Source: Dichetophora obliterata (taxonomy: Eukaryota; Arthropoda; Insecta; Diptera; Sciomyzidae). Taken from it: 64,000 nucleotides of DNA. The translations under genes and the position numbers were made by a program. The notes under the pieces are model-generated. The model saw only the letters and a list, made by a program, of their open reading frames with translations, searched no databases and had not been told where the DNA came from. The stretch is taken from NCBI GenBank assembly GCA_963920525.1, contig OY986436.1:93241910-93305909 (forward strand). The letters run 5' to 3'. Position 1 is the stretch's first letter, and every line of letters begins with the position of its first letter. Below, piece after piece: positions 1-60,410 of the stretch.

Positions 1-47
1 CCAAATACTCAATTAGACCAAAATGACCTGATCGAGCTCGTCTTTAA

Positions 48-285
48 GGGCCAGTTTTTTAGTACGAGTTTAAGGTCTAGTCAAATTGAGCAGACCTTAA
101 CTCACCACAATTGGACGTTTAAACTTTGTTTAGTCAAAAAAGAACCACATTATTTGATAATTTAAGTCAATTTCATATCAACGAATGCTAAAATATCTAG
201 TTTACCGAGTTTAAAAGTCCAATTTTGGTGAGTAAAGCTAGATTTAATTTGACTAAAGTTTAAACTCGTTCTGAAAAACTGGCCC
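48..285. mobile_element. MITE, PIF/Harbinger-like, TSD TAA
   Basis: Both ends carry the inverted repeat GGGCCAGTTTTT, and similarity continues inward for about 45 bp with scattered mismatches. TAA flanks the element at 45-47 and 286-288, which fits the 3-bp TWA target duplication of PIF/Harbinger transposons. It is 238 bp with no coding capacity. A half copy of the same end lies near 16524-16600. The superfamily is inferred from TIR and TSD only. Confidence 0.82.
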
Positions 286-407
286 TAAGTCATTAAAAAA
301 TTCGCCAATTTGTATATTAATTAGTTTTGATTAGTTTGTTCAGTTTAATTTGTGATAACAGGAATGAATCGCGAAAATAAGTTGATATTAATTTCATTTA
401 AATTCGT

Positions 408-586
408 TTGAAGCTGATTCCTTACGGAACATTCGATTTTAATTGCTTTCGCTGCAACCCGATCAAGTTAACGAAACTTGACGATAAAGCTGGCTTGACC
501 AATTATGGGTTGTACGCATCATTTCTATGTAGTCGTATAAAACTTGACATTAGCTGCAGCCAGCTCGAGCCTATTATGTTTCGGCC
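408..586 (-). repeat. Partial MITE related to the palindrome-centre MITE
   Basis: Read on the minus strand, this starts GGCC(G)AAACATAATAG and continues with blocks also found at 46625-46720, including CTCGAG, AATGTCAA and a shared stretch around ATAGAAATGATGCGTACAA. It is followed by TTAA at 587-590. I could not find the partner end, so it is probably truncated. Confidence 0.6.
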
Positions 587-589
587 TTA

Positions 590-1375
590 AGATAGCGTTT
601 TGAAGCAAGGAAAACAATTAAAATTATATTCTCCAATTTAGCGGTTCCAAAAAACAAATTTTTGACTGAACGCCTTAATTGAATTGTTCATTTCATAACA
701 TTAATTTTTTCTAAATTAAGGTCAAATTTATCTATAATTTTAAGTCGTTATATTATAAATAATAGTATAATATTATATTTAATAGAAGAATTATTAATAT
801 ATTGAATTAAAAATATATCATTTGTATTCTTAAAAAAAATAGTTGCATGGTAGCCCTAGCATGAGCGCCTGCATTGCTAAAATTATAACTGCGCTCATTG
901 TGCTCAGAGCCGCCTAAAATCAATGTTGCATCCACAGTGATATAAAAATCAGGCGTTTTATAACTGTAATCGTAAATACTGTGAAAATTATTCAGTTACC
1001 GTATCGAGTTTGTATTTTGTCATAAAAAACAAAAAATTGTTGATATATTTTGACTGTTAAAATTTTGAGGAAAAAATATTTATTTTGTTTTTTAGTATTT
1101 TACGCAAAAATAAAACTTAAAATTTGCCTGATATTCTGCCATGTGAGAAGTTCTAATTGTACTTGCGAAAAAAGGTTATACAATTTTATCAATATTCGCC
1201 ACGTAACTGATATTTTGTTACATATTTTATCTTTGAACGTTGAATATTAAAGGCTGTACGTTTACCCCAAAGTTGAAACAAAAACATACAAACAAATTTG
1301 CGCTGTTAGACGTCAAAGAATACATAGATTTTGTAGCTATGTCAAATAATAAAAACCCTTTTAAGGAAAAATATG
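590..1375. other. AT-rich stretch, no gene seen
   Basis: I see only long A/T tracts and short chance ORFs of fewer than 110 codons with no recognisable motif. The more GC-balanced piece near 845-925 is not a repeat I recognise within the window. Confidence 0.5.
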
Positions 1376-1556
1376 CAGAATGTGCAACACTGCTTTTTCA
1401 TTACAGCATGTTCTCGCTCTCACGTGTTCTGTACATCTACGCTCTTTGTCCTCTCAAAATTTTCCGCTCCTCTTTCCGCTTCACCCCTGAATTCATCAAG
1501 CAGACGGCAAAGTGCACTGCCTGCCCTCTGTCGACGCACGGGCAAGAATTCTGGAC

Positions 1557-1622
1557 GGCCCTAGTCTAATGGATAAGCTGATTCACTTAAACTCACGCAG
1601 CCGAGGTTCAAGTCCCCGGATA
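1557..1622 (+). repeat. tRNA-like SINE head or tRNA relic
   Basis: TAGTCTAATGGATAAG (about 1562-1577) resembles a Pol III A box. GGTTCAAGTCC (1605-1615) resembles a B box. The spacing suits a tRNA, but the acceptor stem does not pair, so it is not called as a functional tRNA. Related tRNA-like blocks lie inside the two MITEs at 39826-39890 and 41640-41708. Confidence 0.6.
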
Positions 1623-1664
1623 ATGATAATTTTTCAATTTTCATGGGTTGGAAGTTCAGGAAAC

Positions 1665-2150
1665 ATGCTCCTCGCCTCCATACCCGCTATTTTTTTTTTA
1701 TAAGCATGTCCTAGGGCGGCATGCCAAATGAACTGCCGTGGCAGCAATGCAGCATGCTTTGCTTTGGTCTCTCAGGCCGACAAATCAATAATCGGAAAAT
1801 CAGGAGACTTGCTCGCCTCCACACGCATTCATCTCACGGTATTTATTCTGCATTCTTACCATGAGATGCTTGCAGCATTGCTGCTAGGGCAGTTCATTTT
1901 GGCAGACATGTCGCTAGAAAAAAGAGATAATAAGTGCGTGTGGAGGCGAGCATGGTAGAAGAATACAGGTATATGCACCAGATGAGAGCATACTGCCGGA
2001 ATTGTCAAAACGAAGCAAAACTTTTTCTTTATTTTCTTTTGTTTCCATTCGCCACACAGCTAAATTTGACAGATATGGCAGTATGGAAAGAGAGCACAGT
2101 CAGCGCTGCATATACCTCTATCCTTCTACCATGGAGGCGAGCATGTCTCC
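1665..2150. repeat. Four-fold GGAGGCGAGCATG-type motif
   Basis: A 13-17 bp motif occurs near 1665-1681 and 1811-1825 on the minus strand, and near 1940-1957 and 2133-2148 on the plus strand. It makes nested inverted repeats, with the inner pair extended by CACACGCA/TGCGTGTG. Function unknown. It may be the subterminal repeat set of an unrecognised DNA transposon. Confidence 0.5.
1990..2084. mobile_element. 95-bp hairpin MITE, copy 1
   Basis: The ends form an imperfect inverted repeat with consensus ATACTGCCRKRTYTGTCAAA. A copy of the same 95-bp length lies at 33455-33549 in inverted orientation, with similarity running on into both flanks (about 1975-2136 and 33404-33567). No target duplication could be defined. 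Confidence 0.6.
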
Positions 2151-2225
2151 TTATTTTCTGAGGTATGTTGCCGGCAGACATGCAGCAGGCCTGCTTTTCC
2201 AACTGGGCTGAAACAGTAACACTTA

Positions 2226-2690
2226 GGCCTTTTCCACACTTGGTCAACGCAACTCCAACTCAAGTTGCTAGCCTGTGTATTTATACCGGAACCTTCAGAT
2301 TAAGCAACTTGGACGCAACAAGTTCTCGACACGTTCTCAACCTGTTCAACGCAACGCGGCTTTCCGCAATTTTCATCGGCGACTTGTTACCTCAGTTTGT
2401 TTGTTTTGTGAATTCAATTATTTTTCTATATATTAATTAAGGTGAATAAGTTAATTAGTTCTTTTTTTCATTAATAGAATCTAAAAGAAGAAGAAATAGT
2501 TTGAAAGGTGTATGAGCAAGTGCAAGAAGTCCAGAAACATGAGTTATCATATAATTATAAGCTTACACATGTTGCATGATTTTTGAAGCAAGTATGAAAG
2601 CATTTGGCTTATAGTTGCATTGCTTATCAACTTTTTCGCTGTTGCGTTGAGGTTGCGTTGGAATTGCGTTGACCAAGTGTGGAAAAGGCC
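2226..2690. mobile_element. MITE, TWA target, GGCCTTTTCC family, copy A
   Basis: The inverted repeat GGCCTTTTCCACACTTGGTC continues through CAACGCAA. TTA flanks both sides (2223-2225 and 2691-2693). The length is 465 bp and it is noncoding. Copy B is at 55378-55865. The 3-bp TWA duplication suggests PIF/Harbinger mobilisation, which is an inference since no transposase is present. Confidence 0.88.
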
Positions 2691-2904
2691 TTATACTCGC
2701 GTCGGTCTCACAGGCCAATAACTGTAGTAAATTCTGACACATTAACTCTGCACATGCGGTCACCCTGCAGTGAACAATGCGCAACAAAAAATAAAAAGCT
2801 ACTAAATACCGTAAAGTTGCAGTGACGTTAATTTTTCAAAAACATCGAATTATTGATTTGTCGGCCTGAGAGACCAAAGCAAAGTTTTAGGCCATTGTAC
2901 TCAT

Positions 2905-3345
2905 TTTGGTGGAATTTAAGGAGATTTTACTGATTTCATAAAGTTATTTTGTATGGGAGGTAGACGTGGTTTTCATTGGATTTTTATAAATTTCATACGT
3001 AAAGTGCCTATTACAGGTTCAAGCGTATGTGCAAAATTTAAAGTAATTATATTAATTTTTGTGGGATTTAAAGATATTTTACCGTTTTGATAAAGTAACT
3101 TTGTATGGGAGGTAGGGCTAGTTTTAATCCGATTGTGCTCATTTTCAAACTTAATCTTTATTTTTGAATAAAAAGCTAATATATTGAATTTCGTTACGAT
3201 AAGTCTTAAATTACGGCTGTTATCGTGATCACATACAAACAGACGGACAGCCGGACAGCCGGACATGGCGAAAACGACTCAGGAGGTGATGCTGATCAAG
3301 AATACATCGTTCATATTTTCTATACCTGCTACGCCTCCTTATAGG
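2905..3345. repeat. Dispersed repeat with 'gatgctgatcaagaat' tail, copy 1
   Basis: It contains the repeated phrase TTTGTATGGGAGGTAG, then CGGACAGCCGGACATGGC, then GATGCTGATCAAGAATACAT and a CGCCTCCTTATAGGCGTG hairpin. The same order of phrases occurs at 31130-32275. From memory, similar phrases are common in fly genomes. The element class is not resolved. Confidence 0.55.
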
Positions 3346-6179: not shown

Positions 6180-6930
6180 AAACCGAGCGTTTCACTAGCG
6201 CATTTGAAGAGCTCTCAAAAAGCAATAGAGCGCTTCGTTCTCCTTGTGGATTGCGCATTTTTTAACATTGTCATGTCATCAGATGTAAGCTGTAACTACA
6301 GTAAAGGCCCAATTATAATAGACGTAACGTAATGTTTTCAACTGTCATCATGACGGGACGCAATGTAAGACAACGTTATAACAATTATAATAGGCAGTAG
6401 CCAGGCAGTTGTTTGCCGTAAATAGTTGCACGTTCCCGTACAAGTTCAATTAAAACTTCGTCATCCATAGCTGTAGATTTATAGAACTATCACATAAATA
6501 ACGAAAACTCAACAAAAAACGTAGTTTCAACAATACACATTACACACTAATCGAATCTTATCTCAATGTTCAGTTGCTTTTTGACAAGACGTAATGTAAA
6601 GTAACGTAGAAATCCAAAATGCACGGATCTGTACTTTCCGTCCCGTTACGTTACGTTTATTATAATCACTTGTATAAGAAAGCATTGTTTCAAACAATAA
6701 GTGAAAGAACGCACTGCTCAACTGACATTAGATCTCTTCTTTTATTATAATTGAACCTTAAATAAGAAAACGCAGCGAAAGCAGAGCGCTCCGTTCTCCT
6801 TGTAGCATATATAGAAACAGCGAGAACTGAGCGCTCTCCTTGTAGTAAATTCACTGTTGCCAGATCAGCAGATTTCCCGCCAAAAAAGATGATTTGAAAG
6901 TTTTTTGGCGGGATGAAAAATTTCAAATGC
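6180..6930. repeat. GAGCGCT...TTCTCCTTGTRG repeats around the 6304 MITE
   Basis: Related phrases with GAGCGCT and TCTCCTTGTRG appear at about 6228, 6785 and 6823. CGCATTTGAA (6200) faces its inverse TTTCAAATGCGC (6922-6932). This suggests an older inverted-repeat element split by the 6304-6671 MITE. The 78-codon minus-strand ORF here has no recognised domain. Confidence 0.4.
6304..6671. mobile_element. MITE with ATTATAATARACGTAACGT ends
   Basis: Left AATTATAATAGACGTAACG and right CGTTACGTTTATTATAATC are inverted repeats. Another TATAATAGGC block lies inside near 6387. About 368 bp and noncoding. The outermost bases diverge, so the boundaries are approximate. Confidence 0.6.
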
Positions 6931-6934
6931 GCTG

Positions 6935-8412
6935 GCCGAATTTTTAGCGGATTCTTTATTTATTGTTTTATTAAATTTAGCTTAATTATTTTTAATTTAA
7001 TAACGATGACCATACATCGAAAATATGAGTAGTCAAACACTGATGTTGAATTATCGCTTAGTCAGCTCAGTATTGTAAAGTCTACAATAATAATAATTTT
7101 AACTTTCAAGATACGACTTAATAAGCCACCAGGAGTGCTGTCACGACTATAATATACCCCAATCTTATATATATTACGCAAACGCAAATTTTATACGGCG
7201 TAAATCTTTTTGAGTTCAAGTCCAATCTTAATAAATTTAGTATGGTTTGGCAGGTTTAGACCTGTAGATGTGCAAACTGCACTTGTTAATTCTTAAAAAT
7301 GAAGATTTTTTAAATGATAGTGAGTTAAAGTTTGCATATAATTGTTGTTGTTATTTTGGTTTTTCTCTTCTTAATTTCAGCATATGCCAAAAAATATGTG
7401 AGGTACTTAGCGCCACCTATTGGCAAATAGCTATGAAACTGTTATACTGAGGAATAATATTTTATAATTTCACAGCTACAACTATGAACTGATAAATTCA
7501 ATATCAAAGTGATACTGGAATGATTTCTTACAGTTGAAAAATTATTTCTAAACTGTTCGGAAATTCTTTATAATTTTTAAAAATTATCACAAAACTTTAA
7601 TAAGAAATTGGAAACTAGTAATGAAACATTTTTGTTCAAACATTTTTCAACTGGAAATCAAAAAGTATTCTTACTCCTGTATATTTAAAATAAATTTGGG
7701 TATAAAATTAATTATGCTAACATTATATCGTCGTTGCGCGTGCAATACCGCGTATATTGCAAAAAGGCCAAAATTGATTTCATTTCAATTTTAATCAGTT
7801 GAAAATCTATTCAATAGCTTAAAATAAAATCTAGGTAGGTTTGATTTTGGCGTTTTTACGCCACACGGCCTTACTAGTCATATCTAATGTTGATTGGGTC
7901 GAATGCAATCGATGTCAGCAAGAACATTATTGAAGAAAGGATTGATTTAAAGTAGTATATAATTTTAGTGTTTTAATTGGAACTTGAATTGATATTTTTT
8001 GTAATTTGTTTATAATTATAAGTATTTATATTTTGTTATAAGCACACTACGTTATTAAATGTAAAAAAAAGATTAATTACCGGATTTTAGCAAATTTTTC
8101 GGATTTTGATCAGCAGTAGCTGGTCAACACTGAGTATATTCAAAAACAAAGAGAAAGCAGAGCATTTTTTTTCTTTTTGAAACATTTCAAATTCAAGATA
8201 ACATATTGTCAATCGGCTGTATCGAGCGTTCGAACGGTCAAATACGAGGCCTGTCCTACAATGCGTGACAACATGTAGGACCATGTGAACCCCGCTAATG
8301 GAACGCGTCTTTGGCTTTTGTTCTTTGTCGTTTTTTTTTTAGAACTGCTGTTTGGTTCGGAATAAGTCAATTCCGCCTTGTTTCCTTTTTATATTGCTGT
8401 TTGTGCTTTGTT
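6935..8412. other. AT-rich stretch, no gene seen
   Basis: Short ORFs only, none with family motifs. I see no clear repeat boundary. Confidence 0.45.
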
Positions 8413-21126: not shown

Positions 21127-21950
21127 CCCAGTAAAAAAACATGCGATCGTTCCTATGAGGAGCAACAACAGAGCGCTCTTTTGCTGTTTTATTCTATCAA
21201 AAAGTGAGCACTTGTGCTCTTGTGCTCCTTTACTGTTTTAAAAAATCAATAGGTGAGCAATCAATGAAAAAAAGCACATAAAGTGAGTCATGTGCTTTGT
21301 AAGAACTCGATCATTATTTGCTGTGAAAAATCGGCCATTATAGTCTAGTGGAGAATGCGCTAGACTAACAATCCAGAGGGCCTTGGTTCGACTCCGGGTT
21401 CGGGCATGTTTCTTTTCACTTTCTTTGTTCTTTTCTACATTTAAGAATTATGGAAAACTAAAAAATCCACAGCTAAATTGTGGAATTAAAGGACAGGAAC
21501 AACTAAGGGCTGAAAATGCTTGCCGAGGTTAAGGCATAACACACACTAGCCTCGGTTAAAAGCGATTGAAAGCATTATCTTTCACGTCTGTTTCGTCTAA
21601 TCAATAATTCACGTATGGTTCCAATCAATTCCTCTAGCTAATCTATCCATTTCCTTTCACGTCAAAGACCAAACCTTGTTTGTATAAGGCGCATGTTGGT
21701 TCTTTGATCTTTTAAAAAAAAAAACAAAAAAAAAATATTTTAAATATTCCTTTGCAGATCCATTTGAATCATTTATTGATCGCTCCTTTTGAGCTCCTCT
21801 GGGATGTTAAAGGGAGCGCTACCCTTCCTAGGACATGCAATGTTAAAAGAGAACCCAAAATACACCTAGCTTGGATCAATAAGGAGCACTCCACTGTTCC
21901 TCCGGAAGCACTCCCATATCGCTCATAGGATGATCCACTTTTTTGCTGGG
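21127..21950. mobile_element. 824-bp MITE present only in unit 1
   Basis: CCCAGTAAAAAA...ATCGTTCCTATGAG at the left pairs with CTCATAGGATGATCC...TTTTTTGCTGGG at the right. In unit 2 the flanking blocks B and C are joined directly, so this is an insertion relative to unit 2. It contains the tRNA-like block at 21338-21406. Confidence 0.65.
21338..21408 (+). repeat. tRNA-like block (Val-like anticodon loop), probably not functional
   Basis: A box TAGTCTAGTGGAGAATGC (21350-21367), anticodon loop CTAACAA giving AAC, and a canonical B box GGTTCGACTCC (21391-21401). T-run TTTCTTTT follows at 21408. The T and anticodon arms pair reasonably. The acceptor arm does not: the 5' side reads GGCCATT against 3' TTCGGGC. 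I read it as a tRNA-derived SINE head or tRNA pseudogene inside a MITE. Confidence 0.55.
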
Positions 21951-29612: not shown

Positions 29613-30551
29613 CAAAATCTTCTCCATCGACGACATCGCATGAGAATTCCAGCTAATTTTATTTGTAGCGCCTTTTCTTTGCAATCTGATGTAAACAGAG
29701 CCGCGTAGCGTAAAAGCATTGAAGATTTTTTTGTTGCGCTTAAGGGCGATCGCAGCTTGCAAAATTTTTCTATCGCTTGGATTGAGGCCCTCATGAATGT
29801 AAACATTATTATCTGAATCGAGGCCTGCATTGCGCAAGTTGATAGCATTTTTGGCGCGCCTGCGATAGTCACCGAAAGCTTTCAAAGCACGGTTTCTATC
29901 GAAAGGTGTATAGAACTTTACAATAACCATAGGGCTTTGGTTAATTGATTTCGGTTTAACTCGAAAAATGTCTTTAATTTGGGGGGATAAGAAATCAATC
30001 GATCTACAGATTTGATTGAAGGTACTCTTTAGGTTTTCACTAAGAGAGAGGGGCACTCCAAACAAAACCGCGTCGGCAGAGTAATCGATAGCTGTGTTGT
30101 TGTTGCTGGTGCTATTAGTCTTTAAGAGTTGAGCAAGCTCGTCACATCGAGAAGAGAGAGTGCTAACTTTTTCTTCGAGTGCGTATATTTTACTGTCGTA
30201 CTCTACAAATTTAGCACTAATTGAAGCAATATCCGTCTCCAACTTTCTGAAGCTGCTGGAAAAGTTAGACGTTGCGGAATTAATAAGGTTATCAGTATGC
30301 TGTCTGAAGCGTTCTTCAAGAAGTCTCAATTCCTCTCTGGCATTAGTACTGAGACGCTCTTCCAAGGCACTGAGTTGATTGCCAAGTGTAGCTGCGTTGC
30401 TGTTCATTAATTTCGGTGTGCCGTCATTTTTGTTTGAACTTCGGGGAGCAAGCAAAGAGTATAAATGAGTACTACTACTCATTTATACTCTTTGGAGCAA
30501 GTTGCTCACGCTGTTGTCGAGTCAGCATAGGAGCGGGCGTCATTTCAACAG
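29613..30551 (-). pseudogene. ORF1 of family B retrotransposon
   Basis: Nucleic-acid-binding protein of the element. A heptad-like region rich in Leu, Glu and Ser runs through the first 150 residues (LEERLSTNAREELRLLEER and ALEEKVSTL), then an FP-like domain with VIVKFYTPFDRNRALKAFG and VYIHEGLNPSDRKILQAA. The natural start is probably the ATG near 30551, because the frame from there reaches the hairpin at 30453-30494 and meets a stop inside it. The downstream frame continues from within the hairpin. The C-terminal end near 29613 also needs a frame change. So the gene is broken but nearly complete. Confidence 0.82.
30453..30494. mobile_element. 41-42 bp hairpin insertion, minimal transposon-end pair
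   Basis: Two 19-bp arms CAAAGAGTATAAATGAGTA (30453-30471) and their exact complement (30476-30494) are separated by 4 bp. GGAGCAAG flanks it at 30445-30452 and 30494-30501, an 8-bp duplication that shares one base with the hairpin, or 7 bp (GAGCAAG) if the arms are taken as symmetrical. It interrupts ORF1 and introduces a stop on the sense strand. The arms are identical to the outer ends of the giant palindrome at 43934-49683. Confidence 0.85.
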
Positions 30552-39454: not shown

Positions 39455-40088
39455 CACGGATAAAACTGTTTTTTAATTTTGTATGGAGATTAAGAAAACT
39501 TGAGCATGATTCTAACGTATTTCAAAATGTTGCTTAATTTTAGCAGAAATTAATCAAAATTTAGCTTTATAGTCTTCATTGCTTGCAAATATTTGCTAAG
39601 TTATTATAAACTCAAATAGCAAATTTTTACTAAACTCAAGCAAGTATTTGCTAAGTTATTATAAGCTCAAATATAAAATTTTTACTAAACTCAAGCAAAT
39701 ATTTGCTAAGTTATGATAAACTCAATTTGCAAATTTTTACTAAATTCAAGCAAATTTCTTTCAAACACACGAGCACACGTTTATTCTTAATGAAGAAAGT
39801 TAGACGGTGATTAGTTAACAACTGCGATGGTCGAATGGATAAGCCCATGCACTAACACTCACGCGGCTGAGGTTCAAGTCTCCAGATCCTGGTAATTTTT
39901 GAAATTAATTTAATGTTAATAATTATTTAACTTCAATAATATGCTTATAATAAGTTATAATAAAAATGAATACCAAATTTTGATTAGTTTTTGCTGAAGT
40001 CTAGCATAATTTTGAAGTGCGCAATTTTTGATTCAAGCGCAAGTTTTGCTTAACCATAATACAAATTTAGCAAAAAGTTTTGTCCGTG
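39455..40088 (+). mobile_element. MITE with CACGGA ends and tRNA-like core, copy 1
   Basis: The terminal repeat starts CACGGAYAAAAC and is similar for about 150 bp (GCTTAA, AACTTG, CTTCAAAATTATGCT and ATCAAAATTT blocks in both arms). CA flanks both sides. Inside are three 58-bp direct repeats (39583-39757) containing TATTTGCTAAGTTATTATAA and a tRNA-like block at 39826-39890. Copy 2 at 41375-42089 is inverted. Confidence 0.78.
39826..39890 (+). repeat. tRNA-like block inside the CACGGA MITE, copy 1
   Basis: A-box-like TGGTCGAATGGATAAG and B-box-like GGTTCAAGTCTCC are in tRNA spacing. CACTCACGCGGC lies between them. Similar to tRNA-Arg/Leu-type heads but without a paired acceptor stem. Confidence 0.6.
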
Positions 40089-41374: not shown

Positions 41375-42089
41375 CACGGAGGAAACTGTTTGCTAAATTT
41401 GTGTTGTGGTTAAGCAAAACTTGCACTTGCATCTCAGCCACTTCAAAATTATGCTAGATTTCAGCAAATACTAATCAAAATTTAGTATTCCTTTCAAATT
41501 TAATTCAAAGAAAATTTATATTTAATTCAATCAAATATTTGATAAGTTATTATATATTGGTATAGCAAATTTTGATTCGTTTTTGCTGAAATATAGCATA
41601 TTTTTTAAGTGAAATAATTAAAAACATTACAGTAAATTGAAAAATTTCCATTATCCGGAGACTTGAACCTCGGCCGCGTGAGTGCATGGACTTATCTATT
41701 CGACCATTGCAGTTGTTAACTAATCGTCGCCTAGTTTTCTTCATTAAGAATTAACGTGTGCTCGTGTGTTTGCTTGAATTTAGTAAAAATTTGCTATTTG
41801 AGTTTATAACTTAGCAAATATTTGCTTGAGCTTATTAAAAATTTGCTATTTGAACTTATAATTACTTAGCAAATATATGTTTGAGTTTAGTATAAATTTT
41901 CTATCAGTTTATAAGAACTTTGGAAATATTTTCTTGAATTTAATATAATTTAACTTTTTCCTAAATAAATGAGGAGTGATTTCAATTTAGCAATCTTTTT
42001 CTTAAGTCACACCGTGATTGAGCAAAGTTTTGCAGATTTGCTTTTAAGCAAGATATTTGCTTGATATGAGCAAAATAATTATCTCCGTG
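41375..42089 (-). mobile_element. MITE with CACGGA ends and tRNA-like core, copy 2
   Basis: CACGGAGGAAACTGTTTGC at the left and its imperfect complement ending TCCGTG at the right. TA flanks both sides (41373-41374 and 42090-42091). It carries the same direct-repeat block and tRNA-like core on the opposite strand (41640-41708). Length is 715 bp against 634 in copy 1, the difference lying mainly in the repeat block. Confidence 0.8.
41640..41708 (-). repeat. tRNA-like block inside the CACGGA MITE, copy 2
   Basis: On the minus strand: TGGTCGAATAGATAAG, then CACTCACGCGGCCGAGG and GGTTCAAGTCTCCGG. These keep the A-box and B-box positions seen in copy 1. Confidence 0.6.
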
Positions 42090-42971: not shown

Positions 42972-43706
42972 GGCAATATTTATTTCATCAATAACAACAA
43001 TAATCGTATCACGGCAAAAGTCAACAAAATGTAATCCAAATTACATATAATCGTTAACTTTTATAACCTGGTAAAACTGCTTTCTGACAAGTACTCACGT
43101 TAGGAGTATTTTAGTTACGTAAGCAACATAATTGTGGACGACGACGCAAGGAAAAAATACATCAAGCCAATTTTGTCCGATCTCGTCGGGAAACGAACGA
43201 GGCTCAAGACGAAGGCTACGTTTTACATAAGGATGCGATTAACCTTAAATAATTTTTAACATAGTTCAAAGCATTAAAAAAAATAAAGAAAAACACCGAA
43301 GTTAAGATTTCGATAGAATATGTTTAATACATTTTAGTAACTTTTGATGATCTCGAATCGGAATGGTTATCGAATAGAGGCCTTTTCCTTGTTTTGTCTG
43401 CAGTACATTTAAACTTCACTTTTGACAGGAAGTTAAGGAAAGTTTTAGGCGAACAATTTTTTGAAAATAATTTTTTTTTTATTGATTAGTGTTGAACAAC
43501 TATTCAAGAATATGTAAAAATTGAAATCAATCCGCTTATGATACAGATTCTACAGTGCTTAAAATTCGGTGTGCCAGAGTAACTTTAAGCGTGGTTTTCT
43601 TAAAACATACTTTTTCAAAACGGGCCACACTACTGCAAACAACCTAATCGACTGATATATTTTTTTTAAGCTGTTTGTATTTTTAATACAAACAAATATA
43701 TACATA
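42972..43706. other. No gene seen
   Basis: Mixed AT-rich sequence to the left border of the pogo-like element. Confidence 0.4.
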
Positions 43707-43748: not shown

Positions 43749-44366
43749 AAATTGAAATTCTCGCGGCGTTTTGAATATTTTGTTTTTGTTTAATTTTTTT
43801 AAAGTTGATATTTGCACTCTTCATCACCAAAAAAATTCATTCGTTGAAATTTCATCGTTGCATGTTAACGGGAACGAACGTGTTTTGCTCAGCAAAAAGA
43901 AATTTTTTTGTTTTTAAATAATTAAAGTGATACCAAAGAGTATAAATGAGTAGAAGAGGTCCAGCCACTCAATGTTAAATTTTTCTCCTTAATCTCGGTG
44001 AGGTGCGCAAGAGATGTCCTAAAATTGAAGCGCAGCTGCAGCGGCAGAGCGATGTCGCTTTGCAGCCAATTTCGAAAATCTCTTTTAGGACTAGAGAGAT
44101 TTCGAATTAGAAATTAAAATGTGTGCGCACAAGCGAGCTAGAAATATATTGCCTTGCTGGTTTCTTGCTTCCTTTTATGATCCCAATAGAATCGATTCAA
44201 GGTCTTATTATAGAAAAAAAAATGTTTGTTTACATTTTGTTTTCTATATTTTTAATAACTTCGCCTGTGTGCACAAGGGAGCAAAAAGATTGGTTTTTTT
44301 TAATGGCCTTGCCTGTTTCTTCCTATTTGAATATAAATCGCATTGTTGTCATTCTTATTACATTTG

Positions 44367-44441
44367 GCTACATTTGGTAAATTGCAAGATTTATGAAAGA
44401 AATGAAGCAAAGCAGATTTCTTGCAATTTACCAAATGTAGC
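44367..44441. repeat. 75-bp hairpin in left arm
   Basis: Perfect 23-bp arms starting GCTACATTTGGTAAATTGC with a 29-nt loop. The mirror copy in the right arm is at 49176-49250. It may be another minimal transposon-end pair like the one at 30453. Confidence 0.7.
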
Positions 44442-44547
44442 AAGTGTCAATGCGTTGCCAAATTTATTTCTTCTTAATAGCTGGAAATTTTTGTTCTGAT
44501 TTTTTTGTAGCTAGGTATATTTTGATTTTCATATTTTGATTTTCAGA

Positions 44548-44597
44548 TATTTCATTAGCCGAATAGAATACGGATTTCTGATTCGGCTAATGAAATA
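44548..44597. repeat. 50-bp hairpin in left arm
   Basis: 17-bp arms TATTTCATTAGCCGAAT and complement around a 16-nt loop. Mirror copy at about 49020-49069. No target duplication evident. Confidence 0.7.
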
Positions 44598-45084
44598 ATT
44601 ATTGCTTAGTAATGACTTCAACAAATGTTTGTTCATTAACAGAACAAAAGAATGCCCTTTACAAATTTTTCCTATTATTTATTTAGAATATACCTATTAG
44701 AAAATTTAAATTAAATTAAATTTATATTAAGTGTTGTCCATATTTTTATATTTATTTTAAAAATTATACAAACCAACACCAAATATATTTCTCTCAAATC
44801 TGAAAAGGAGAACGGAAATTGATTGCAAAGTATTTCTTTAGATAACTTTATATATTTTGCGTTATTCAAATTATTATATTAATTAAAAAAATAATTATAT
44901 ACAAACCACCACCAAAAATATATCTTCCAAACCAGATAAGAAGAGATAATAAAAGATCTGAAAAAAATAATTATATACAAAGCACCACCAAAAATATATC
45001 TTCCAAACCAGACAAGAACGTAGCAGATGCAGTTGCTGATGCATTAAGGTTTTTAGGTAATTAAAATAAAATTCCAAATAAATT

Positions 45085-45320
45085 TCAATGTTAATCTTAT
45101 TATTTAATATAATACTTACAAACTATATGGCTAATTATATAATATAATAACGTACAAACTAAAATGAATTCTTATTATATAATATAATACATTAAGAACT
45201 AAACGAAAATCTTATTATATAATATAATATGTTACAAACTAAATGAAAATCTTATTATGTAATATAATATGTTACAAACTAAATGAAAATCTTATTATTT
45301 AATATAATAACTTACAAACT
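45085..45320. repeat. Minisatellite, about 42-bp unit (left arm)
   Basis: About five units with TTATTATATAATATAATA followed by a variant of GTTACAAACTAAATGAAAA. Mirrored in the right arm at about 48297-48532. Confidence 0.7.
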
Positions 45321-45703
45321 AACTGAAGCGGCAAACATTTTAATTTAATTTCATCGTATGTAAATAATCCTAAGCTAACAACTTAACCTAATAATATTTA
45401 CAAAATATTTACAAAAAATTACAATATTTACAAAGTATTTACAATTTGCAAAATTTACAAAATATTTACAGAATTTACAAAATTGAACCAAATTGAATAG
45501 AATTTTACATTGATTACAATATTTAGGAATTATTTACAATATTTACAAAACTAAACAAATTTTTATTAAATATTAATACAATATTAATATTTACAATATT
45601 TACAAAAAGCTTCTGTTGGTCAAGAGAGATTTGTTTTGATAAAAATTAACTAAAAGATAAAACCAAAAAGAGAAGATAGAAAATTTTGAAAAGTTTTAAT
45701 ATG

Positions 45704-46058
45704 CGTTTTCGTTTATTTGTTGGGAGCAGGGCACATACCGAACGTTCCGAGAAGAGTATACACTGAGTGTGCTCGGAAAACTCTGAATTAATAAAATATC
45801 AAAACAGAACACCAATTGTTAAGGGTGTCACTTAGTATTTTGTTTTGGTCGTTTTAACAAATTAAATAAATATATTATATACAAATACATAAATATTAAA
45901 TATAAATATATTACGTGCTCGGCCATTTGATTGAGAACACGTAGAGTAACGTCGAGAACGCTTTCACCGTGCTACGAGTGTATACAAAAACACCATTAAT
46001 GTACGAGCATGGTGTTTGCTAGTTCTTGCTCTGCTCCCAACAAATAAAGGAAAACACG
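45704..46058. mobile_element. 355-bp MITE nested in left arm
   Basis: TTTATTTGTTGGGAGCAGGG at the left and the complement of CTGCTCCCAACAAATAAAGG at the right, extended by CGTTTTC/GAAAACACG. TAAT may be duplicated at both edges. An identical copy is at 47559-47913 in the right arm. Confidence 0.7.
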
Positions 46059-46199
46059 TAATGAGTCTAACGAGGACAAAGCTAAAAGGGGTATTGTTAT
46101 TAACACGTTCGCTGCCAAAATAAAATTTTGCATTAAAAAAAATACTTACAATATGTACAATATATTTACATGGCAATACAAGCAATTTATTAAAATATT

Positions 46200-46455
46200 T
46201 ACATGTATTCCAATATTTGCAAAATATTTACAAAATGTACAAAATATTTACAAAATATTTACAAAATATTTACAAAATATTTGCATAATATTTACAAAAT
46301 ATTTACAAAATATTTACAAAATATTTACATAATATTTACAAAATCTTTACAAAATATTTACAAAATGTACAAAATATTTACAAAATATTTACAAAATATT
46401 TTTCAAAATATTTACAAAGTATTTACAATATTTACAAAATGTTTATAATATTTAC
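46200..46455. repeat. 11-bp tandem repeat ATATTTACAAA (left arm)
   Basis: More than 20 units of the 11-mer with small changes. Because 11 units make 33 nt, the chance ORF here repeats KIFTKYLQNIY every 11 residues. It is not a real gene. Mirror array at 47162-47417. A looser array of the same word is at 45390-45610. Confidence 0.85.
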
Positions 46456-46624
46456 AATATATAATATGTACATATATGTGATGGGTGGTAGCGAACGTGT
46501 TAAAAGAAAGTGTTTGTGAGAAATACTACGAAAAAGCTTTCAAACTAGTAAAAGAGCTCTTGAAAGCAGTGGTCGGTTCAAAAAAGAATCGAAACTCAAA
46601 GAAAAAAACTTAATGAAAAATAAA

Positions 46625-46990
46625 GGCCCAAACATAATAGCCTCGAGTTGGCTGGTAATGTCAATTTTTATACGAATGCATAGAAATGATGCGTACAAAC
46701 CACAACAGCTCAAGGCAGCTATTTAATTTTCGTTAATACAAATGTCAAAAGTGTTTATGACTAATTCAAGTCATGCAAAATAAAATCCAATCGTCAACTG
46801 AGTCGGTTGTTGCTCAAATCAAAGATTTTGATTTTTTCAAGTTTTCTGGCAAGTCTTTCAAATCGATTGTGCTGTGTATGGTCAAATCGTTTGATAAGCT
46901 GTCAACATACATATTTTTAGCTGTCGTTTGTGAAGATTCGTATAAAAATTGACATTACCAGCCAACTCGAGGCTATTATGTTTGGGCCTT
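46625..46990. mobile_element. MITE at the palindrome centre
   Basis: GGCCCAAACATAATAGCCTC at the left and GAGGCTATTATGTTTGGGCC at the right are part of the palindrome arms and look like the terminal repeats of a MITE. The family resemblance to 408-586 supports this. The unpaired 258-bp spacer of the palindrome is the MITE interior. Confidence 0.7.
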
Positions 46991-49683
46991 TATTTTTCAT
47001 TAAGTTTTTTTCTTTGAGTTTCGATTCTTTTTTGAACCGACCACTGCTTTCAAGAGCTCTTTTACTAGTTTGAAAGCTTTTTCGTAGTATTTCTCACAAA
47101 CACTTTCTTTTAACACGTTCGCTACCACCCATCACATACATATATGTACATATTATATATTGTAAATATTATAAACATTTTGTAAATATTGTAAATACTT
47201 TGTAAATATTTTGAAAAATATTTTGTAAATATTTTGTAAATATTTTGTACATTTTGTAAATATTTTGTAAAGATTTTGTAAATATTATGTAAATATTTTG
47301 TAAATATTTTGTAAATATTTTGTAAATATTATGCAAATATTTTGTAAATATTTTGTAAATATTTTGTAAATATTTTGTACATTTTGTAAATATTTTGCAA
47401 ATATTGGAATACATGTAAATATTTTAATAAATTGCTTGTATTGCCATGTAAATATATTGTACATATTGTAAGTATTTTTTTTAATGTAAAATTTTATTTT
47501 GGCAGCGAACGTGTTAATAACAATACCCCTTTCAGCTTTGTCCTCGTTAGACTCATTACGTGTTTTCCTTTATTTGTTGGGAGCAGAGCAAGAACTAGCA
47601 AACACCATGCTCGTACATTAATGGTGTTTTTGTATACACTCGTAGCACGGTGAAAGCGTTCTCGACGTTACTCTACGTGTTCTCAATCAAATGGCCGAGC
47701 ACGTAATATATTTATATTTAATATTTATGTATTTGTATATAATATATTTATTTAATTTGTTAAAACGACCAAAACAAAATACTAAGTGACACCCTTAACA
47801 ATTGGTGTTCTGTTTTGATATTTTATTAATTCAGAGTTTTCCGAGCACACTCAGAGTATACTCTTCTCGGAACGTTCGGTATGTGCCCTGCTCCCAACAA
47901 ATAAACGAAAACGCATATTAAAACTTTTCAAAATTTTCTATCTTCTCTTTTTGGTTTTATCTTTTAGTTAATTTTTATCAAAACAAATCTCTCTTGACCA
48001 ACAGAAGCTTTTTGTAAATATTGTAAATATTAATATTGTATTAATATTTAATAAAAATTTGTTTAGTTTTGTAAATATTGTAAATAATTCCTAAATATTG
48101 TAATCAATGTAAAATTCTATTCAATTTGGTTCAATTTTGTAAATTCTGTAAATATTTTGTAAATTTTGCAAATTGTAAATACTTTGTAAATATTGTAATT
48201 TTTTGTAAATATTTTGTAAATATTATTAGGTTAAGTTGTTAGCTTAGGATTATTTACATACGATGAAATTAAATTAAAATGTTTGCCGCTTCAGTTAGTT
48301 TGTAAGTTATTATATTAAATAATAAGATTTTCATTTAGTTTGTAACATATTATATTACATAATAAGATTTTCATTTAGTTTGTAACATATTATATCATAT
48401 AATAAGATTTTCGTTTAGTTCTTAATGTATTATATTATATAATAAGAATTCATTTTAGTTTGTACGTTATTATATTATATAATTAGCCATATAGTTTGTA
48501 AGTATTATATTAAATAATAAGATTAACATTGAAATTTATTTGGAATTTTATTTTAATTACCTAAAAACCTTAATGCATCAGCAACTGCATCTGCTACGTT
48601 CTTGTCTGGTTTGGAAGATATATTTTTGGTGGTGGTTTGTATATAATTATTTTTTTCAGATCTTTTATTATCTCTTCTTATCTGGTTTGGAAGATATATT
48701 TTTGGTGGTGGTTTGTATATAATTATTTTTTTAATTAATATAATAATTTGAATAACGCAAAATATATAAAGTTATCTAAAGAAATACTTTGCAATCAATT
48801 TCCGTTCTCCTTTTCAGATTTGAGAGAAATATATTTGGTGTTGGTTTGTATAATTTTTAAAATAAATATAAAAATATGGACAACACTTAATATAAATTTA
48901 ATTTAATTTAAATTTTCTAATAGGTATATTCTAAATAAATAATAGGAAAAATTTGTAAAGGGCATTCTTTTGTTCTGTTAATGAACAAACATTTGTTGAA
49001 GTCATTACTAAGCAATAATTATTTCATTAGCCGAATCAGAAATCCGTATTCTATTCGGCTAATGAAATATCTGAAAATCAAAATATGAAAATCAAAATAT
49101 ACCTAGCTACAAAAAAATCAGAACAAAAATTTCCAGCTATTAAGAAGAAATAAATTTGGCAACGCATTGACACTTGCTACATTTGGTAAATTGCAAGAAA
49201 TCTGCTTTGCTTCATTTCTTTCATAAATCTTGCAATTTACCAAATGTAGCCAAATGTAATAAGAATGACAACAATGCGATTTATATTCAAATAGGAAGAA
49301 ACAGGCAAGGCCATTAAAAAAAACCAATCTTTTTGCTCCCTTGTGCACACAGGCGAAGTTATTAAAAATATAGAAAACAAAATGTAAACAAACATTTTTT
49401 TTTCTATAATAAGACCTTGAATCGATTCTATTGGGATCATAAAAGGAAGCAAGAAACCAGCAAGGCAATATATTTCTAGCTCGCTTGTGCGCACACATTT
49501 TAATTTCTAATTCGAAATCTCTCTAGTCCTAAAAGAGATTTTCGAAATTGGCTGCAAAGCGACATCGCTCTGCCGCTGCAGCTGCGCTTCAATTTTAGGA
49601 CATCTCTTGCGCACCTCACCGAGATTAAGGAGAAAAATTTAACATTGAGTGGCTGGACCTCTTCTACTCATTTATACTCTTTG
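46936..49683. repeat. Right arm of the giant palindrome
   Basis: Carries in mirror order the 11-mer array (47162-47417), 355-bp MITE (47559-47913), minisatellite (48297-48532) and both small hairpins (49020-49069, 49176-49250). ORFs in either arm, such as the 126-codon one at 49118-49498, have no recognised domain. Confidence 0.9.
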
Positions 49684-50045
49684 CATTAACCCTGTAGTGG
49701 TGGCTAAGTTCTATACACCTTACGATCGGAATCGTGTCCTAAAGGCATTTGGGGATTATCGTGGGCTACACAAAAAAGCGTTTAATCTACGTGAAGCTGG
49801 TATCGACTCTGACAACAATGTCTACATACACGAGCGCCTCACCGCAGATAATCGTAAACTACTACAAGCGGCGATTGCCTACAAGCGCCAAAAGAAAATT
49901 TATAATACTTTTACTCGTCGAGGTGTCAAAAAGCGCCAAAAGAAAATTTATAATACTTTTACTCGTCGAGGTGTCATCTGCATCAAGCTTTTAAAGATGC
50001 TGATCTTATAAATATTACCAACTACGAAGAACTTCAAAGAATTGT
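49684..50045 (+). pseudogene. ORF1 C-terminal part with internal duplication
   Basis: Encodes the FP-like domain: VVVAKFYTPYDRNRVLKAFG, then IDSDNNVYIHERLTADNRKL and KRQKKIYNTFTRRG. The last phrase occurs twice because of an exact 48-bp tandem duplication (about 49882-49977). The coiled-coil half seen in the other copy is absent, replaced by the palindrome. The upstream ATG at 49649 lies in the palindrome and is not the natural start. The frame changes near 49990 before the expected end. Confidence 0.75.
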
Positions 50046-50268
50046 ATGTGCTAGTGAGGATGGAGAGGGCAGCTGACTTATTTTCATGTTATTTTATAAT
50101 TGTTATATATATTATGCCTTTTACTTTTTTTACATACTTACTTACTTACTCACTTTACGTATTTTTCTTTTCCATCTTCCATTATGTAATTCATTCACTT
50201 TTAAACTATTCGTTCTCTTGCCGTATTTCTTTAAATGCTTTTAGTTCGTTGTTCATAAATATTTTCTT

Positions 50269-50966
50269 ATGTCAGTTGTAAATTATATGTATTTTGATGT
50301 CAAAAACAATCATAAAACTGTGATAGAAATTTTGTGTTGGCAGCATGAAGGATTAAAAATCGTTAATTTTAATGCTCGAAGTCTACATGATTTCAAGTTA
50401 GATTGCGTAAGACATGTCTTTGTAGATTCATCTGTTGATGTTATTTGTGTCTCAGAAACGTGGTTTCATGAAGATGTAAACGACTCCTATCTTAACTTTT
50501 TAAAAATTATAGGCTTTTCAGAAATGATAGAGTGGAGAAAAGAGGTGGTGGAGTTGCAATTTGTTGTAAGAATAAAGTAAATGTTGTGGGTAAATCGAAT
50601 CAATCGGAAGTAGAATTTTTGAACGTTGAAATTTTAGGCAATTTAAATAAAGTATTTGTTTCTTGCGTCTACAATCCAAATAGTAGTTGCAGTTTGGATC
50701 CCTTATTTATGTCTTTCTATAATAATTGTAACACTCTCATGCCGACTAGGTTTTCAAACAACTCTCCTCCGAGCTTACTAGACATTTTTATTATCTCCGA
50801 CGCATCAGCTATTTTGCTTTTCGATCAAATATCTTTTGTTTCCGATCACGATCTTATTTTCTGTACATTAAATATCAGAACGTCAACCGCTGAACCTTCA
50901 ACTCTTTTTAAATATAGCGATTTTAGGTCTATTGATAATAACCGTTTGCATCAGAATTTGGCTTAA
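50269..50966 (+). pseudogene. Endonuclease domain of family B, copy 2
   Basis: IVNFNARSLHDF, VICVSETWFHEDVND, a frameshift near 50520, KRGGGVAICCK, VFVSCVYNPN and QISFVSDHDLIFCTLNIR. The SDH motif is intact. The block holding GDFN in other elements is deleted between DPLF and TLMPTRFSNN (about 50705-50740), so the active site is incomplete. The sense is opposite to the copy at 28739-29473, with which it aligns well. Confidence 0.82.
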
Positions 50967-50999
50967 GTTAATTGGTCAGATTGCTAGTTTTTACAATCA

Positions 51000-52658
51000 G
51001 TGGATGAAAAGCTAAATTTTTTCATTGACGTAATGAATACTCTTTTCAATATGCACGTTCCCTTACGCACGCGTCACATCATAAATAGTAGTTGTCCATG
51101 GTTCACGCGGTCTGTTAAAGTAGCTCTCAAAAATCGTAGCAAAACATATTGTAATTGGAAGCGCAACCCCACTACCTTGAACTGGAATAAGCACAAAAGA
51201 CCGAGGAATGATGCCACATCCGCTTTCAGGCTGTCCAAATCGGTTTATTTTATATCCAAACTTAATCCTGCGCTACCCTCTATGATAATAATAACAGTGG
51301 TAATTCTGAGTCTCCGAACGCTTTTCGGTTTAATGCTGTAAGTGAATTGGACATAGCTATCTGTATAAGGAAAGTAAAATCGTATGCATCTGGGGAAGAT
51401 GGAATCTCCATTAGGTTTATTAGCTTATTTTACCTCACGTCCTTGGTCCACTCGCTCATATAATAAATCACTGCTTTACCACCTCATGCTATCCAGAGAT
51501 TTGGAAAGTAGCGACTATTCTTCCTATTGCTAAAAAGCTTGCAACCAATGCGAGTTCCGTTCAATAAGTCTTTTGTCCTCGCTGTCTAAAATATGTGAAT
51601 CGCTTATGGCGGATCAGATATCTCATCATTTAAGTCTTTTTAACCTCATGTCGCCTCTCCAGTCTGGTTTTCGGCCTGGGCACAGCTGTTCGACTGCTGT
51701 GGTAAAAATACTTGATGATATAAGAGTACCTTTTGATAATGCTGATTTGACATTGCTTTGCTTGCTGGATTTCTCAAAAGCATTTCACACCGTCAGCCAC
51801 TCTATACTCTGCAAAAAACTATCTTTAAATTTTCGTTTTTCAAAATCTGCGGTCCGTTTATTAAGAAACTATTTAGTAGGTAGGTCTCAAAGAGTTCGTG
51901 TTTGTGAAAATATTTCTATGCTAAAAAGCACTACTAGCGGAGTACCTCAAGGTTCTGTTCTTGGACCGTTGCTATTTACAATGTTTATAAATGATATTTT
52001 CAGCAAGTGCCAACACGTGACTATACATGCATATGCAGATGACCTCCAATTATACATGTCCAGGCTTATCGGCATAGTTGAAGATCTATGTGCTAGAGTT
52101 AATGAGGACTAAGCTTTGGTATCTAAATGGGCAGATGAAAATATGCTCACGTTGAACCCCACGAAATCATTTGTTTTGCCTATATCTAAAAATCCATACT
52201 ATCACGAAGATTTGCCTCCAATCCTACTTAATACCGTGAAACTGAAGCTTGCTAATAAAGCCACTAATCTTGGTTTTCAAATAAACTCATTTCTTGCCTG
52301 CGATGATCAAATAAACTCATGTGTAAAAAAAGTGTACTATCTTCTTCGATATCTCCGAATGACATCATTGTTTGTGCCCATTGAAACAAAAAAGAAACTT
52401 GTATTGCAGTTGATTATGCCGATCATAACATACTCTGAAGTCGTGTACTGCAAACTTGACTCTATGCAGCGCTCTATGTTTACGGTCTTAGAAAGTTTGA
52501 TCATATCTCTGTCTGTTGTAAAAAATTACTTGGTAGTGACTTACCAAGTTACCTTGAAGCTAGACATTGCATTTTCCTACACCGGATCATCTCTTAGCTC
52601 CCAATTTTCTTTTACTCTCATTTTTTTCTTCTTCTCTCACTCTCTACTTAGTTTCTAA
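51000..52658 (+). pseudogene. Reverse transcriptase of family B, catalytic motifs kept
   Basis: The N-terminal linker (PWFTRSVKVALKNRSKTY) is followed by several frameshifts. Then come SLSSLSKICESLMADQISHH, FRPGHSCSTAVVKILDDIRV, LLCLLDFSKAFHTVSHSILC, STTSGVPQGSVLGPLLF and HAYADDLQLYMSR (about 52027-52065). YADD and the first Asp (LDFSKAF) survive, so the motifs missing from the minus-strand copy can be seen here. A stop at 52110, after LCARVNED, and a deletion past SKLDS-like sequence near 52460 break the frame. The final 40 codons are out of frame. Confidence 0.85.
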
Positions 52659-57991: not shown

Positions 57992-60410
57992 CATATACTA
58001 CATAGTTATTTATATAAATATAGATAAATGTTTGATTAAACGTTAAGTCTTATTAGACTAAAACTAAAAGGACTAATCTACAACTATAATTTGCTAATTA
58101 TGCTCCTTAGTAAAAATTAGTAAATTCTTCTATTTGCTTTGTCCTCTTCACGGAGTATTTATTTACCTTTTTTTGCTAATAAAAGAACGTAAAATGTAAT
58201 ATTTATTGTCTACAAAACTTATTTAAAAACTTCAATCTTTATCTTAATAAATAATTGAAATTATTTGAGATTTCCTACGAAAACAAAAAAAATTCATTCA
58301 AACGTAGGGCTTAGGGACTTTTTAAAATAAATTTTAAAAGCTTGTTGTGAGCTTTTGAAACTTGTTTCTCTGAAAAAGCTTATTATAAATTGAATTGTGT
58401 AAAGTAGTATCAGATAAACCTAAACTTAAAAATATTGAAAGTGAAACTATTTTAAAAATTATAATACTTGGTTGCTGTTGTTTTAGTCGTTGGTTAACGG
58501 AGTCTCATGTGGATTTAGTATCACGCGTTTGTCAATATGTATGTTGCTAGTAGCATGATCACGTGGGATACTATTATAGATGTCGGCGTCAGGAAGAATA
58601 TGGCTCCGCGACCACATTGTTGTATTTCAATTTCTTCGGGATGATAATTGATGCATTTTTTGGGCCTGCGACGTTTCTGTGTTTCTTGAGACTGTCGTCG
58701 GGTGCTGCATGCCCCTGGAATAAGGATAAAGATAAGGATGAATCAGTAATATAAAAGATAGTTTATAAGTTAATGGCAAGAATGCAAAAGTCGTATTTTC
58801 TTGATGTCTTTATGCAAAGACAACGTTGCATAATGCTGAAAATGCAACGGTGTACAATGTAAGATTTGAGCGTTTGGGCGCAAAAAAACTATCATTTGCC
58901 AAATATGTTATCTAAATATTTTGACGTAGAATTACGTCTTACAGCGCGGTTTGTATGAGGGTCATTTTCAAAAAATTTTTCAAGCACATTTAGGGATTTT
59001 AGTTGACGCTTTCGGGTATACCTACAGCCTTTAATATTCATCTTACAAAGAAAAAATATATGCCAAAATATCAGAGTGCGAATAAAACGAATATATCACT
59101 TTGGATTTTATCACTTCTTTAATGAAGTCACAATACAGCAAAATCTAAGAAGAAAAATTCATCTATTCCTATGAGAAATGCACAAGCTGCAGCTTCAAGT
59201 TTAACAAGCATGCTTCAGTACCTGCTTGTGCTGTTGTTATTGTTGTTGTTTTGGTTTTTGTTGTGGTAGTTTGTTTGGTTCGCTATCGTATCGTTCGTTG
59301 TTGTGTTGTTTTTGTGACTGTTCTTGTTATTAATATATATGGTAAATGCAAGAATGATAGAATAAGAGATTACGCTTTGCGCAGGTCCGTTACTTCTGCT
59401 AATCGAGTTTGACAACCATCTGTTCAGTTGACTACGTCACAATATTTTATTTCTTTGAGAAACGCACTGCGATCGCTGTGTTTTATTTAATTGTGTTTAT
59501 ATCGAAGTACATTTGCGAGTTTTTAACTTAAAATTTAAAAAATTAAGTGTGCAGTTGCTAATTGTGGTAACAATAGCAAACAAATATTTTTCAAAAACCT
59601 GATGTTTGCAATAAACTCAAAAATTAAACCAAGAAATTGTAGAAAAAGCACAAAAACGAAAACAAAAATACAAAAATATCTTAACTTAACAAAATTTGTT
59701 TCATTTTTTAAAAACTTGGAACTATCATTTATTTGTCTTTTCAATTCACAGGTAAATTAATGGAAATAAAATATCTGGGAATGTTTTAAGTGCATCAATT
59801 AAACTCGTAATGAACATTTTTATAAAATCCAAATCGAAAAATAATGCTAACTGAAGTTGGTTTCTCAAACAAATTTTTTTTTACTTAGCTGCTTACTGGC
59901 TGTAATAAAATATTAGTAAAAATAAAGTTTGCAAAGGAGTACTTAATAAATTTACCTTCTTCTCGTTCCAATAAATTGCTGCTTAATTCTTTTATTTTAA
60001 TTATACAAACTAAAATGTATGCAATTTTCATTTCTGTGTAGAAATCGTATGCAAAGTGAACGCTCTCCAAAACAGCATTGATATTATGACGTACATGCGC
60101 AGAACGACAATTTTGTTGTACACATTTTCTTGTCTTCGGCGCAATCTTTGTATTCTATCATTCTTGTGGTAAATGTACAAGTTAATGTCAAACATATTAA
60201 CTGTCGGTCAATAACCGACCCCATTAATTTGCTTACTTATAACTATCCATATTTTGCAATCATACCGCGCTGATCGATGGCCAACGACGGCTCCACTTAT
60301 TTTCGCAATCATATTGCGTTGACAAATATTTTATGCGGAGGTGAAGCGATAATCAACGATAATAACAACAACAACAGCAGCAGAAGCAGCGACGGAACAG
60401 CAGTGCAGCC
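57992..60410. other. No gene seen; simple-sequence patches
   Basis: TTGTTGTTGTT-type runs at 59230-59310 and AACAAC/CAGCAG runs at 60362-60400. GGTAAATGCAAGAATGATAGA (59341) has an inverse partner TCTATCATTCTTGTGGTAAATG (60156). No ORF with family motifs. A host exon in 58560-60400 cannot be excluded without transcripts. Confidence 0.4.

Follow-up and report, generated by a model that had tools for sequence, protein, structure and literature searches.

The Drosophila P element has short ends and makes 8-bp target duplications. Within the same superfamily, Galileo of D. mojavensis includes 2RT copies, which carry two extended or recombinant terminal inverted repeats (TIRs) in the order TIR1-F1-F1-TIR2 (PMC3573991). 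The longest Galileo TIRs named in that account measure about 1.25 kb, and for the extended ends Marzo and co-workers proposed that one TIR is copied in place of the other (PMC3573991). Copy 112 of D. willistoni is larger, with 9021 bp and TIRs of 4246 and 4680 bp; it is described without a transposase segment, and its arms include direct repeats as well as pieces of the transposon Mar (PMC4168063). Here we describe a 5.75-kb palindrome in a 64,000-nucleotide stretch of contig OY986436.1 of the sciomyzid fly Dichetophora obliterata (the whole stretch is referred to below as the window). We conclude that it very probably consists of two inverted left ends (positions 1-3050 and 2791-1, with a 1-bp overlap) of a 9.9-kb Galileo-like transposon of the P superfamily, likely generated when a copy was excised or broken and the resulting gap was repaired, with the left end being copied for the right.

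The locus resembles the Galileo 2RT copies in its membership of the P superfamily, in the recruitment into both ends of internal sequence that lies beside one end, and in the lack of a transposase (PMC3573991). Its arms, at 2.74 kb, are longer than the TIRs named for D. mojavensis, whereas copy 112 of D. willistoni is a larger palindromic copy and has kept identical target duplications (PMC4168063), which the copy in the window has not. The palindromic architecture is therefore already published for a P-superfamily element, Galileo, including a larger copy, and the window copy is a further example. Among the titles listed by our searches of the open-access literature, we found no report of a P-superfamily element with long inverted ends outside the Drosophilidae. 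As in the present family, most Galileo copies of D. mojavensis have 7-bp duplications and the chimeric ones non-matching 7-bp flanks (PMC3573991). At inversion breakpoints of D. buzzatii, Galileo copies are described with exchanged 7-bp duplications and chimeric sequence after ectopic recombination (PMC2775673).

Structure of the palindrome

Self-BLASTN of the region returned a near-perfect inverted repeat at 43934-49683, exactly the interval that an earlier note on this DNA had given. The arm alignment that the note had proposed also bore out its description of near-identical arms of about 2.74 kb: arm A (43934-46677, + strand) and arm B (46936-49683, - strand) are 99.67% identical over 2748 aligned columns, with 5 mismatches and one gap. 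The arms differ by the 4-bp insertion in the right arm that had already been noticed and by 5 substitutions that had gone unmentioned; all differences are confined to arm positions 1049-2545, and the outer 1048 bp are identical in both arms. An asymmetric spacer of 258 bp (46678-46935, +) lies between the arms. DNA folding of the palindrome centre gave a z of -17.7, which merely restates the mirror.

The terminal 20 bp, CAAAGAGTATAAATGAGTAG (43934-43953, +), recur in inverted form at 49664-49683 (-). With up to 3 mismatches allowed, they have 4 occurrences in the window where 0.01 would be expected, namely at the two ends of the palindrome and at the two ends of a separate 42-bp insertion (30453-30494). 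The sharing of ends had been recognised in the earlier note, which matched the outer 19 bp to an insertion of 41 bp; the sharing holds and the length is corrected here.

Alignment to two other members of the family, L012 and the 9.9-kb L011 (see below), identifies both arms as left ends. In L011 coordinates the palindrome reads as element positions 1-3050 followed by 2791-1 inverted: arm A is the left end from position 1, the spacer continues this left end to position 3050, and arm B is a second, inverted copy of it. The head-to-head join (46936) leads from element position 3050 (+) to 2791 (-) and shares 1 bp (A; overlap read by hand). No right-end-specific element sequence aligned in the palindrome in the comparison with L011. 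Non-TIR sequence that lies beside one end of the element is thus found at both ends of the palindrome, inverted, and the transposase is missing. The left-end origin of both arms goes beyond the earlier note, as do the lack of a target duplication around the palindrome and the footprint-like nature of the small insertion, both treated below.

The transposon family

The genome (1.31 Gb in 76 contigs, with the window on contig C2) was searched with 2667 bp of arm A; the search gave 116 matches, with 40 of 2675 candidates scored. The places matched (L009-L037) were resolved by manual inspection into 28 elements, L027 contributing two. Such a search for further large elements with these ends had been suggested earlier, and it uncovered a multi-copy family. 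Its member L011 is 9.9 kb long, has the duplication GTAATAC on both sides and possesses inverted ends of about 0.9 kb (616 columns at 99.5% and 279 at 92.8%), in keeping with the inverted ends of at least several hundred bp expected of Galileo. L011 carries an open frame of 878 amino acids, stop to stop, and the transposase frame of L012 is shorter (783 amino acids). Pfam domains were scored on the L012 frame, and five families were recovered: THAP, Tnp_P_element, the N and C parts of the TNP-like RNase H, and the GTP-binding insertion. The L012 frame also matches the solved Drosophila P transposase (6p5a, E 5.8e-19), and its D, D and E align to D230, D303 and E531 (residue numbers counted by hand), the residues named as catalytic in PMC7776569. 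A protein search returned 6 database proteins without names, at 30-36% identity.

Judged by the transposase domains and the catalytic D, D and E of the L012 frame, the family belongs to the P superfamily. We file it there as Galileo-like, a likeness drawn from structure and published descriptions. It is like the Drosophila P element in its THAP and P-transposase domains and its three aligned catalytic acids, but unlike it in having 7-bp duplications and inverted ends hundreds of bp long. The earlier suggestion that the palindrome has mobile ends, and is not just a random inverted duplication, is therefore sustained: the ends belong to a P-superfamily transposon that is present in multiple copies and produces target duplications of 7 bp.

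Beside the transposase gene, L011 (8532-8810, -) and L012 (7556-7834, -) contain a second short open frame with a THAP domain of its own (Pfam 5.6e-13 in the L012 copy), which could encode a separate small DNA-binding protein or represent an exon. Inside copy L016 lies a mariner-type transposase frame of 354 amino acids (6498-7562, -; HTH_48 and Transposase_1).

Target duplications and flanks

Both ends are known for 20 elements, 12 of which have exact 7-bp duplications (L009, L011, L012, L014, L016, L017/L018, L024, L025, L026, the second of L027, L028 and L029); L022 is off at 1 of the 7 bases, and 7 elements have no duplication (the window copy, L013, L015, L020/L021, L023, the first of L027 and L030). 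These 12 elements and the 42-bp insertion provide 13 sites with the consensus GTA(A/T)TAC, read in both directions. Both this consensus and the 7-bp length of the duplication agree with Galileo, for which GTANTAC is given (PMC4168063). The palindrome is bordered by GTGATAC on the left (43927-43933, +) and by CATTAAC on the right (49684-49690, +), and not by the identical repeats of a simple insertion. With a 7-mer target score derived from these 13 sites, to which the window copy did not contribute, GTGATAC fits the family consensus, its score being matched by no more than 0.03% of the 7-mers in the window; for CATTAAC the figure is 24%. One good target 7-mer and one that is not were found in all 4 duplication-less elements scored (the window copy, L015, L023 and L030; 4 of the 7).

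CATTAAC lies inside open reading frame 1 (ORF1) of a non-long-terminal-repeat retrotransposon, the remains of which (49684-52658, +; 3' bound provisional) begin in mid ORF1 exactly at the palindrome end and include the reverse transcriptase at 51534-52112. This right flank aligns to ORF1 residues 184-272 of another retrotransposon copy in the window, and the other genomic copies read (4 of 4, from 49 matches listed) all continue upstream with ORF1 and not with the left flank of the window. According to these alignments the right edge of the palindrome cuts ORF1, and the 5' part of ORF1 is absent on the left side; from these two observations together we conclude that the flanks of the palindrome are rearranged. 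A later insertion of the retrotransposon at the palindrome edge was considered and rejected: the displaced GTGATAC expected 3' of the retrotransposon was not found close by. This motif has 5 matches in the window, and the sole one beyond the palindrome lies at 58518 on the other strand.

On the left, a further copy of the flank, L059 (85% over 190 bp), ceases to match when 10 bases remain to the palindrome; the sequence with which L059 continues is absent from the window. Part of the left flank (43433-43680) belongs to a short repeat, about 250 bp long, and of the 40 matches listed for it 38 are relatives at 79-84% identity. To the right of the palindrome, the retrotransposon ORF1 contains a perfect 48-bp tandem duplication (49883-49976).

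The family contains a copy, L023, that is informative on how flanks may become mismatched. Over the outer 620 bp its left arm has 1-3 differences to main-lineage copies and 13 of 595 to its own other arm; over the inner 1070 bp it has 1 of 1070 to its own other arm and 22-24 of about 1061 to main-lineage copies. On this distribution of differences, L023 is a sequence chimera with mismatched flanks, the outer 620 bp on one side deriving from another lineage. The pattern is that of the chimeric Galileo copies (PMC3573991) and of the exchanged duplications at breakpoints (PMC2775673). Because this chimera has mismatched flanks, ectopic exchange is a likely cause of the flank mismatch in the window. 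The outer 600 bp of the window copy are identical to those of L010, L011 and L016, so that chimerism within the window copy would be undetectable.

Two more loci have unusual surroundings. From the same base onwards L030 and L017/L018 have homologous right flanks, but their left flanks differ, and L030 may be a rearranged copy. L013 (C2:70772460-70779534) is a 7.1-kb element of the family whose two chromosomal flanks match each other in inverted orientation at 100%, both through the first 1.5 kb and once more at 2.8-3.2 kb, with no inverted match at probes 5.8, 9.8, 19.8, 39.8 and 79.8 kb; the locus is either a chromosomal palindrome around the transposon or an assembly fold.

Other left-left copies

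A left-left structure was found in 13 of the 28 separated elements, with at least 4 different joins. L009 has a 4080/1561 join with a 1-bp overlap and L014 a 2725/1028 join with a 2-bp overlap (both read by hand), the layout of L014 being shared by L015 and L030. No second copy with the 3050/2791 join of the window was present among the matches of the arm-query search. Eight copies (L023-L029, L027 being double) form a 3.5-kb type, from which L025 departs by being shortened and L023 by its greater length on one side. All eight have a common asymmetric centre, with 93 consecutive columns identical in all, because of which they likely descend from one join. Exact duplications, at different sites, flank 6 of these 8 copies, and the left-left copies with intact target duplications also include L009 and L014. 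The two 3.5-kb palindromes of L027 follow each other in direct order and share the same left flank, an arrangement suggestive of tandem duplication.

The arms of the 3.5-kb type have 36 variable columns. Twelve are peculiar to arm A of L023; 17 are peculiar to one arm, two of them being seen in each of the duplicate L027 copies; and the remaining 7 (503, 836, 982, 1088, 1646, 1661 and 1686) are copy- or lineage-wide, with a state found in both arms of a copy or lineage and in neither arm of the others (arm A of the chimeric L023 being the exception at column 503). Arm-to-arm conversion would produce a pattern of the kind seen in these seven columns. The arms of five copies were also put through a pairing test, from which the chimeric L023, the short-armed L025 and the duplicate second copy of L027 were omitted: the within-copy sum was 13 and the mean 26.3, and 325 of 20000 random pairings reached the within-copy value. 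In the window copy, 4 substitutions are private to arm A, and 1 substitution and the 4-bp insertion to arm B. Its two arms share 2 substitutions (arm positions 1200 and 1913) that are absent from the 9 sequences of 8 other copies compared (9 and 8 of which have a letter at these positions), and these may predate the join or come from conversion.

The 42-bp insertion and other features of the window

The 42-bp insertion at 30453-30494 lies in a second retrotransposon, close to where ORF1 begins. Between two copies of GAGCAAG (30446-30452 and 30495-30501, both +) it contains 19 nt from one end of the element and 20 nt from the other, with 3 nt in the middle. Donor sites of the P element retain about 17 nt of each end. 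A staggered cut of 17 nt is described for P transposase (PMC10983969, PMC7776569), and the footprint-like remnants of the present family may be in line with it. In a genome-wide exact pattern search three footprint-like places were found, with 18-20 nt kept per end and two of them in one duplicated stretch; the reversed control gave 0. The latter two (L038 and L039; C2:41686163 and 41689961) are 37-bp remnants within a stretch duplicated at 99.5% over 2.2 kb and have no matching 7-mers, nor does L038 have a clearly good 7-mer at its flanks (scores matched by 7% and 16% of the 7-mers in the window). The 42-bp insertion is most likely an excision footprint, the alternative being a very short deletion derivative.

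Elsewhere in the window, two arrays of related 55-bp units (39585-39755 and 41769-41942) lie in opposite orientation about 2 kb apart. The sole Rfam match, at 21334-21406, is tRNA-like and just above the gathering score (34.8 vs 29 bits); it may be a gene or a repeat.

Discussion

We propose that the palindrome originated in the repair of a broken or excised element. Because about 0.9 kb of sequence is similar at the two ends of the element (with 99.5% identity in the outermost 0.6 kb), the left end is usable as template for the right, and a broken right end could have taken it as such, which is the template choice proposed for the extended Galileo ends (PMC3573991). DNA synthesis would then have continued into left-specific sequence, and the two new strands would have been joined with almost no homology. 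Since such a product keeps two intact ends, it could be moved by transposase made elsewhere, and the 3.5-kb type has likely spread in this manner. In the window copy, one flank would later have been replaced by ectopic exchange with another copy, or by aberrant transposition.

Several points weigh against this scenario. No intermediate was seen, and the repair route is deduced from structure. The search query was itself the left end, so left-left copies were favoured. Only the 2 shared private sites tie the arms of the window copy together, and arm-to-arm conversion could have produced them. Moreover, 3 of the 13 true duplications score below 0.5, so the unremarkable score of CATTAAC is weak evidence. 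Finally, the reciprocal partner of a simple inversion was not found: two 22-mers, one for each reciprocal end, each had 0 exact matches in the genome. This gives no support to a simple inversion that left both breakpoints intact, whereas a deletion or a diverged partner is still compatible with the result. In D. buzzatii both breakpoints were found (PMC2775673), whereas here the two exact searches for reciprocal ends yielded none.

Other origins must be weighed against repair at this site. The palindrome may have been made elsewhere and moved here as a two-ended non-autonomous element, its right target copy being lost by aberrant one-sided transposition or by deletion from the element end. The 3.5-kb palindromic type, with one centre at different sites and different target duplications, fits such a history, as does the combination of one good and one poor 7-mer in the four duplication-less elements scored; however, the arm-query search yielded no second 3050/2791 join, the target score is weakly specific (as the low-scoring true sites indicate), and the L038 remnant itself is without a clearly good 7-mer on either side. 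On balance we consider such a relocation rather unlikely. The mismatched flanks, of which the right one is a cut retrotransposon, and the 1-bp overlap of the join could also be explained in one step if a chromosomal rearrangement had joined head to head the left halves of two broken insertions of one young subfamily, and the identity of the outer 600 bp with L010, L011 and L016 means that two insertions could be this alike. Against such a fusion stand the two substitutions that both arms share and that are absent from the other copies compared, and the duplications kept by L009, L014 and 6 of the 8 copies of the 3.5-kb type, from which it follows that left-left structures arise without flank change; we regard it as improbable.

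An assembly artefact, in which a chimeric or folded read or contig would have duplicated one arm as its mirror image, was the main rival in the earlier note. The 99.67% identity of the arms, with their identical outer 1048 bp, and the inverted flanks of L013 in the same assembly speak for it, but the six arm differences are each private to one arm when set against the other copies aligned, which supports the earlier argument for two real copies. The two ends also have different flanks, the 258-bp spacer is asymmetric, and other palindromic copies have exact target duplications, so an artefact appears very improbable. A random inverted duplication without a transposon has nothing in its favour beyond the mirror itself and is refuted by the multi-copy family, with its transposon ends, target duplications and transposase-bearing relatives; its likelihood is negligible. 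The repair of a broken copy with its left end as template remains our preferred explanation for the palindrome.

More speculatively, palindromes might be a routine product of breakage repair in this Galileo-like family: left-left joins with 1-2 bp of homology would form repeatedly, the products would move by themselves, arm-to-arm conversion would keep their arms alike, and exchanges between copies would rewire their flanks, so that one genome would display every stage by which transposons with long TIRs yield foldback elements and rearrangements. We advance this broader view tentatively, as a possibility about which doubt prevails.

A striking palindrome would in this way find its explanation in a named transposon mechanism. 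Several stages can be seen together in a single chromosome-scale genome: the full-length element, its transposase frame open; left-left joins of different kinds; a palindromic type present at multiple sites; signs of conversion between arms; a chimera whose flanks do not match; and what is likely an excision footprint. The proposed origin of the extended ends of Galileo-type elements, and their role in rearrangements, become testable in this family, and the element may still be active.

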